Below, one piece after another: positions 37,516-38,750 of a stretch of 64,000 bases of DNA. A program made the position numbers and the translations under genes. The notes under the pieces were generated by a model. The model worked only from the letters and a program-made list of their open reading frames with translations. It searched no databases and was not told the DNA's origin. Source of the stretch: Haladaptatus caseinilyticus (lineage in GTDB: Archaea > Halobacteriota > Halobacteria > Halobacteriales > Haladaptataceae). The number at the start of each line of letters is the position of its first letter. Position 1 is the first letter of the stretch. Location: the NCBI RefSeq assembly GCF_026248685.1, contig NZ_CP111036.1:930001-994000 (forward strand). The letters run 5' to 3'.

Positions 37516-37605
37516 ATGGAAAACCTCCGACAAAAGCTGATTTCGCTGTTGTTCGTCTTCCTGATGGTGAGTTCAGGGGTCGCGTACACCGTCAGTCTGA
37601 TTTGA
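37516..37605 (+). CDS. Tiny one-TM peptide
   Basis: A 29-codon frame with ATG 38 bases after the preceding stop. The product has a charged start (MENLRQKL) and one hydrophobic helix to the end. Codon use is ordinary. It overlaps the end of the convergent amidase gene by 14 bases. Either a real small membrane protein or chance; too short to decide. Confidence 0.4.
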   Translation: MENLRQKLISLLFVFLMVSSGVAYTVSLI

Positions 37606-38662
37606 GCCAGTAGTCAACGGACCAGCCCGCCTCGCCACTCTCGTAGTCCACGTTCCACCATCGATAGCCCACGGTATCGACGGGACCGCCCGCGATAGTT
37701 CCGGTCGTCCCTTCGGAAACGGTGGCGAGACGTTTCCCATCCGGTTCAGCGCTAACGTTCAGGTCGGATGTCGTCTCCACTGCCGATCCGGCATCAAATC
37801 GTGCATAGAGCAGATCGTCCGCTGGAACCCATCCGTGGGAGTCACCGAAATCGAGTTTGTACCACTGGGTGTCACCACGAACGCGCACGTTCCCGGTGGC
37901 AATGGCAACCGTTCCGGCGGACACGGCCATGGTTTTTGCGTGCTCGTCCGGACCGTGGTGAGCCGCGTCGTCCGAGAGAACGACGGCGTTCTCTCCCGCT
38001 TCGATATCCCAGCGGCGAATGAACCCCTCGTAGCGGCCCCAGTTCCAGAGCGAACCAGGGTCGTAGTGACCGCTGATGCCGCCCGGTTCCGTACAGTCGT
38101 AGGGGTTCGGAATCTGGTCGTGGCCGATGACGCCGCCCTCCCCGTCCGTTGCGTCACAGGGCGCGATCTCGGAGCGCCGGACGCGCTTCGGGAAGTCGAA
38201 CTCGGTCGCTGCCCAGCGGACGATTCTGGCGGAGACTTCGTACAGCGTGTCGGTGTATACCGTATCGTTGACCCATCCGGAATGCTCGATACCGAGCGAG
38301 TGTTGATTGTAAGGCCAGTTTCCGGCGTGCCATCCGATATCTTCCTCGGCGAGCATCTGCGTGAGGTCGCCCGTCCGATGGTCGGCGACGTAATGCGCAC
38401 TCACGTTTGCGTCCGGATTTTGGAACCAATCGACTGTCCACTCGGCCTCACCCTGTGCAACGTGAACCACGAACCACCGGATATCGAGGTCGGATTCGCG
38501 TTCCGCCTCGCTGTAGTTCGACTCGTCTGCCGGTGCCCACCGCATCTCGGGTTTCATTGCCGGAAGTCGTTCTGCTTGCTTTGCATTCGTCTGGCCGGAA
38601 ATCGCACCCGTACCCGCGATGCCACCGATCGTCTTGAGAATCGTCCGTCTCGTTTCTCGCAT
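37592..38662 (-). CDS. Secreted N-acetylmuramoyl-L-alanine amidase with SH3-like domains
   Basis: Predicted peptidoglycan hydrolase of 356 residues. The Tat signal (RETRRTILKTIGGIAG) sits at the start, so ATG at 38662 is preferred. An Amidase_2/PGRP domain spans about residues 45-215: zinc His in WFVVHVAQG, HYVADHRTGDLTQML, NQHSLGIEHSG with the catalytic-type Glu, and GHDQIP and GHYDPGSLWNW with the further ligands. The C-terminal half has two SH3b-like repeats (VRVRGDTQWYKLDFGDSHGW and LNVSAEPDGKRLATVSEG). Archaea have no murein, so the target should be bacterial cell wall. Confidence 0.88.
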   Translation of the reverse strand: MRETRRTILKTIGGIAGTGAISGQTNAKQAERLPAMKPEMRWAPADESNYSEAERESDLDIRWFVVHVAQGEAEWTVDWFQNPDANVSAHYVADHRTGDLTQMLAEEDIGWHAGNWPYNQHSLGIEHSGWVNDTVYTDTLYEVSARIVRWAATEFDFPKRVRRSEIAPCDATDGEGGVIGHDQIPNPYDCTEPGGISGHYDPGSLWNWGRYEGFIRRWDIEAGENAVVLSDDAAHHGPDEHAKTMAVSAGTVAIATGNVRVRGDTQWYKLDFGDSHGWVPADDLLYARFDAGSAVETTSDLNVSAEPDGKRLATVSEGTTGTIAGGPVDTVGYRWWNVDYESGEAGWSVDYWLKSD

Positions 38663-38750
38663 AGTTCGTCCTGATTCCGGTGAATAGGGGGATAAATTAG
38701 ACACCTAGCATGAATGAGTATATTCCGTCCGGTATCTGACTATCGACCTG

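Follow-up and report, generated by a model that had tools for sequence, protein, structure and literature searches.

Haloarchaea are without peptidoglycan of their own. Two wall hydrolases of the haloarchaeon Halogranum salarium, Woldo and Danwoldo, kill the halophilic bacterium Halalkalibacterium halodurans (Strock et al. 2025, PMC12352652), and the bactericidal enzyme B5ID12 of Aciduliprofundum boonei is another archaeal wall enzyme that kills bacteria (PMC12352652). The 2025 work left open whether archaeal wall hydrolases serve killing or feeding (PMC12352652). For the use of wall material, the closest described system is bacterial: Bacillus subtilis groups amiE, nagZ and ybbC within one locus for MurNAc recovery, murQRP-amiE-nagZ-ybbC (PMC5061867).

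The amidase investigated here (the focal amidase) is encoded by Haladaptatus caseinilyticus within a 64,000-nucleotide stretch of contig NZ_CP111036.1, to which we refer as the window. Like Woldo and Danwoldo, it is a haloarchaeal protein with a Tat motif that joins a catalytic domain to tandem binding repeats in an organism lacking peptidoglycan; unlike them, it possesses Amidase_2 instead of M23 or glucosaminidase, and SH3b instead of PG_binding_1. B5ID12 resembles it in its predicted role and belongs to a different enzyme class and a different archaeal lineage. With AmpD, PlyL, XlyA, AmiA and PGRPs the focal amidase has the predicted fold and zinc site in common at ~10-22% identity, whereas its Tat signal and SH3b tail distinguish it from these proteins.

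We propose, with a probability of roughly two in three, that this Tat-exported amidase acts within a set of about 13 enzymes that dismantle bacterial walls, that the fragments are imported and catabolised, and that the main benefit is food. The gene would encode a zinc amidase of the AmpD/PGRP type, predicted to cut the N-acetylmuramic acid-L-alanine bond in bacterial peptidoglycan while its two SH3b domains hold it on the wall; secreted amidases, M23 endopeptidases, a lytic transglycosylase and a glucosaminidase would together take the wall apart. Fragments would enter via an Opp-type ABC transporter, and their cytoplasmic breakdown would fall to NagZ, NamZ, an AnmK-like kinase and an amidase-like enzyme of the beta-lactamase fold, so that dead or killed bacteria would become food. 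The gene and its parts are located in the window as follows.

37592..38662, minus strand: whole focal amidase gene (Tat signal, Amidase_2, two SH3b), ~355 aa
38690..38699, minus strand: TATA-like element TAATTTATCC, ~30 bp upstream of the ATG, read from sequence
38567..38662, minus strand: N-terminal Tat signal region MRETRRTILKTIGGIAGTGAISG..., residues 1-32, read from sequence
38057..38488, minus strand: Amidase_2 catalytic domain, residues ~59-202 (Pfam E 6.9e-22; domain model)
38462..38464, minus strand: H67, predicted zinc ligand 1 (H in 90/90 aligned relatives)
38285..38287, minus strand: E126, predicted catalytic Glu (E in 90/90 aligned relatives)
38120..38122, minus strand: H181, predicted zinc ligand 2 (H in 90/90 aligned relatives)
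38060..38062, minus strand: D201, predicted zinc ligand 3 (alignment of 90 relatives)
37802..38005, minus strand: SH3b repeat 1, divergent (E 1.9e-22 with a family SH3b model that includes this protein; beta-rich, pLDDT ~80-90)
37598..37798, minus strand: SH3b repeat 2 (E 2.1e-28 with the same model, likewise including this protein; structure model pLDDT ~80-90)

The minus-strand ORF at 37592-38662 is genuinely coding. Its probable start codon is the ATG at 38662; an in-frame GTG upstream at 38704 is less likely because a conserved TATA-like stretch, largely kept upstream of the amidase in the H. halobius locus, sits ~30 bp before the ATG. The protein begins with a twin-arginine motif (MRETRRTILKTIGG), recognized by eye, and its orthologs keep the RR; it is predicted on these grounds to carry a signal for export. 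The mature protein is acidic (pI 4.5), with 56 acidic versus 23 basic residues.

Pfam places Amidase_2 (PF01510) at residues 59-202, scoring 78.6 bits where the curated cut-off is 26 (E 6.9e-22). The His-His-Asp/Cys zinc triad and the catalytic Glu are complete (H67, H181, D201 and E126). At position 201, 64 of the 90 aligned relatives have D and 26 have C, an alternation that parallels AmpD versus PGRP/T7 lysozyme, and the following P202 is invariant among them. The catalytic part came out poorly in the full-length AlphaFold model, and a model of this domain built from a deeper alignment was used instead (pLDDT 76, pTM 0.79; moderate confidence). Foldseek searches of this model against the PDB returned AmpD (E 2e-7), XlyA and PlyL as best matches, with TM scores normalised to the target of ~0.63-0.71, and further matches to AmiE, AmiA and PGRPs. 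The focal amidase is predicted, at the confidence of this model, to have the AmpD/PGRP fold. The first-pass annotation, made from the DNA letters alone, had proposed a Tat-exported Amidase_2/PGRP domain with zinc-ligand and Glu motifs, to be checked for loss of the ligands and by structure prediction against AmpD and PGRP. The Pfam match, the complete set of residues and the Tat motif bear this out; the ligands have not been lost, with two His conserved in 90/90 relatives and the third position D or C, and the predicted fold matches AmpD, PlyL, XlyA, AmiA and PGRP.

The C-terminal 130 residues consist of two SH3b repeats, which were modelled confidently and for which Foldseek returned SH3 regions of endolysins and bacterial wall hydrolases. 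The Pfam SH3b/SH3_3 models gave no match to the focal amidase even at E<=1, and a close paralog (L058) passes the Pfam SH3_3 cut-off. The two SH3b-like repeats already noticed in the first pass are seen with the structure model, with Foldseek and with a family model built from the family's own repeats, the focal sequence included; they lie below Pfam detection. Therefore, as far as tested, the focal amidase appears to fall outside the catalytic-plus-binding Pfam definition used in the 2025 work (PMC12352652). Surveys that select on a binding domain recognised by Pfam may accordingly overlook haloarchaeal enzymes with SH3b.

Near-identical SH3b domains occur within the same genome on an amidase (L059), a transglycosylase (L082) and an M23 enzyme (L083). 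Across 28 family genomes we found 69 SH3b ORFs, 60 of which carry M23 (30), Amidase_2 (17), SLT (12) or a partner that is ambiguous between two neighbours (1); among the remaining 9 are 2 glucosaminidases, 1 GH18 chitinase and 1 CocE-like protein. Judged from these sequences, the SH3b domain is evidently shuffled among amidase, M23 and transglycosylase. The GH18 chitinase, which has a Tat motif, and the CocE-like protein, of CocE/S15 type, are those of loci L123 and L126; both carry this SH3b type.

These last partners bear on the alternative that the Amidase_2 fold was repurposed for another substrate, such as an amide or glycan belonging to the archaeon (S-layer glycoprotein, exopolysaccharide) or chitin-like polymers. 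Such a reading could also draw on the GH18 enzymes within the catabolic cluster described below and on the fact that Amidase_2 alone is no proof of substrate. However, the metal and catalytic residues are all kept, peptidoglycan is the sole substrate common to the SH3b-carrying M23, Amidase_2, SLT and glucosaminidase enzymes, and NamZ is a MurNAc-releasing family, which together make a different substrate very unlikely in our view.

The genome encodes about 13 predicted secreted peptidoglycan hydrolases, each beginning with a twin-arginine motif (by eye). They comprise five Amidase_2 proteins (four besides the focal amidase), six secreted-type M23 proteins (SH3b on four of them, tandem PG_binding_1 on the other two), a single SLT transglycosylase carrying SH3b and a single glucosaminidase carrying tandem PG_binding_1. 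Both M23 proteins with two PG_binding_1 domains are Woldo-like and stand in tandem (L175 1058-3193), and the glucosaminidase with two PG_binding_1 domains is Danwoldo-like (L198 1320-2327). Because these 3 of the 13 hydrolases share the Woldo or Danwoldo layout, the general idea is already published (PMC12352652); to this principle we add the class of Amidase_2 with SH3b, the large number of hydrolases, their occurrence in multi-gene runs and a link to a peptidoglycan-catabolic cluster. Three-gene runs were found in two other genera: a transglycosylase (G277) or a glucosaminidase (G209) is followed by M23 and Amidase_2 in consecutive genes on one strand, all with SH3b. Within these Tat-motif runs (L072 119-2524, L077 2009-4501), the SH3b domains are near-identical.

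Two further gene arrangements were observed in the genome of H. caseinilyticus: two SH3b-M23 genes adjoin each other (L084 862-2601), and a short Amidase_2 paralog that has a Tat motif but no SH3b (G000:C1:926170-926763; L060 10140-10763) sits outside the window, ~3.2 kb left of its start.

A penicillin-binding transpeptidase was found in 0 of the 28 family genomes by a search that did detect one in 10 of 14 control genomes. A role on the cell's own wall is unlikely for this reason, and an own-wall autolysin was disfavoured. Among 392 haloarchaeal genomes, Amidase_2 is present in 51 and strong M23 matches in 25; Amidase_2 occurs in 20 of these 25 versus 31 of the other 367 (p 1.5e-15, and p 2e-9 outside the own family, both values ignoring the shared ancestry of genomes).

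The focal amidase has orthologs in Haladaptatus litoreus, H. pallidirubidus and H. halobius at 75-81%. It stands alone between housekeeping genes, outside the catabolic cluster; synteny is conserved in three Haladaptatus species, where its neighbours are nmd3, a helicase gene and a tRNA-methyltransferase-like gene. In two intact ortholog pairs, dN/dS is 0.065-0.094 for the catalytic part and 0.18-0.21 for the faster evolving SH3b part; the gene is under strong purifying selection. The H. halobius ortholog (L011 5001-5096) is an apparent pseudogene whose signal region contains two stops and whose start codon is lost, so the gene is dispensable there.

Selection and synteny also speak to the idea that the gene is a viral endolysin left behind, or was acquired recently by a chance transfer and has no function, for which weak similarity to PHROGs phage endolysins and actinophage lysins could be cited. 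Against it stand the position between housekeeping genes in three Haladaptatus species, the Tat signal, a catalytic dN/dS below 0.1 and a scan of viral contigs that gave only diverged relatives (26-36% identity); we accord it almost no weight. The identity as a phage endolysin was likewise rejected given the lack of a viral or proviral lysis context around the gene. A PADLOC search found nothing.

A catabolic-looking cluster is located on another contig of the genome (G000:C5:14479-33553; L190 479-19553), the focal amidase being on contig C1. It encodes an Opp-type transporter (SBP_bac_5, two permeases and two ATPases), along with SDR, GNAT, an AnmK-like kinase, HAD and a beta-lactamase-fold hydrolase (1.4e-49) with a putative AmiE-like role. 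It further contains the exo-muramidase NamZ (PF07075 7e-79, PF20732 6e-47) adjoining NagZ (PRK05337, 233 bits, cut-off 207), a creatininase-family protein and a Tat-exported GH18. Its content and order largely recur in the other genomes compared. The AnmK homolog is present in 9 of 9 genus genomes and 15 of 28 family genomes, fragmentary in two, and among solved structures it resembles levoglucosan kinase more than AnmK. NamZ and Amidase_2 co-occur (12/17 versus 39/375 haloarchaeal genomes, p 2.6e-8; outside the family p 3e-4; shared ancestry again ignored). Halorussus vallis, H. limi and H. aquaticus have the cluster on plasmids (L199, L200 and L201), where it includes, between the HAD and serine hydrolase genes, a gene for a secreted Amidase_2 that shares 84-88% identity with a paralog of the focal amidase.

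The archaeal cluster shares with that of B. subtilis, whose ybbC is NamZ and whose AmiE has a beta-lactamase fold, the adjacency of NagZ and NamZ and a nearby beta-lactamase-fold hydrolase. The two differ in that the archaeal one has an Opp transporter instead of the PTS MurP and an AnmK-like kinase, while MurQ was not found; the focal amidase itself is outside the MurNAc-type cluster, and a paralog is inside it on the Halorussus plasmids. MurQ etherase gave no match above cut-off in the 28 genomes, and the sub-threshold matches, which are partial and mostly in ORFs of ~600 aa, were rejected as probably GlmS-like. The pathway is therefore incomplete on paper, leaving the breakdown of MurNAc-6-phosphate unexplained, and the last catabolic steps are uncertain because of the missing MurQ and the proximity of the AnmK homolog to levoglucosan kinase. 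Searches of the open-licence literature returned no prior report of haloarchaeal AnmK, NamZ or muropeptide use, the NamZ results being mostly unrelated. What appears to be new is the catabolic cluster with its Opp-type transporter, AnmK-like kinase, beta-lactamase-fold hydrolase, NamZ and NagZ.

The first-pass annotation had read the gene as directed against bacteria, either as a weapon or for feeding, and as requiring no immunity gene; the bacterial target is supported by the residues, the fold, the 13 hydrolases, the shared SH3b and the NamZ-NagZ-AnmK cluster. A target in bacterial walls is well supported by computation, and the focal amidase probably helps the archaeon to kill or eat bacteria. 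Its main role could be to kill competing bacteria after secretion, any gain in nutrition being incidental; this would make it a weapon like Woldo and Danwoldo, whose action on H. halodurans (PMC12352652) and whose layouts, found two and one times in this genome, would fit such a role. The patchy distribution (51/392 haloarchaea), the H. halobius pseudogene and the faster evolution of SH3b, which could reflect a change of target, would fit it as well. In contrast, the NamZ/NagZ/AnmK/Opp cluster and the amidase paralog inside it on plasmids point to use of the products, and the gene shows strong conservation of its catalytic core and synteny within Haladaptatus. We regard a primary weapon as rather unlikely.

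Between weapon and food, the data lean to food: the cluster and the paralogous Amidase_2 inside it on three Halorussus plasmids point to peptidoglycan as a food source, with killing perhaps coming first. More tentatively, and as a possibility that we would not yet call probable, Haladaptatus and some of its relatives may be peptidoglycan-eating archaea that kill or scavenge bacteria, dismantle their walls with up to a dozen or more exported enzymes, many of which have a swapped SH3b anchor in common, import the fragments via Opp and live on them by means of NagZ, NamZ, an AnmK-like kinase and some replacement for MurQ. The locus and the genome provide concrete gene sets that make the question of killing versus feeding testable.

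The closest non-archaeal relatives found were amidases of Streptomyces and Nonomuraea (~31-40% identity), which also formed the nearest group in a tree whose bacterial sampling consisted of plasmid and phage records only. Such actinobacterial Amidase_2 proteins are annotated as peptidoglycan recognition family protein, and the tblastn match to them ends near residue 215-238, so that SH3b is not matched. The best tree unites the haloarchaeal copies in one group, within which the five Amidase_2 copies of the H. caseinilyticus genome are spread over several subclades; because the branch that unites them is weak (74/30), the tree does not establish a single transfer from bacteria. A clustering with enzymes acting on archaeal glycans, which the first reading had named as evidence against a bacterial target, was not seen: the nearest proteins are the Streptomyces and Nonomuraea peptidoglycan amidases, in line with the structural matches to AmpD, PlyL, XlyA, AmiA and PGRP. 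Finally, on the Halorussus vallis plasmid (L199), an enolase-superfamily gene, possibly a dipeptide epimerase, was observed near the cluster.
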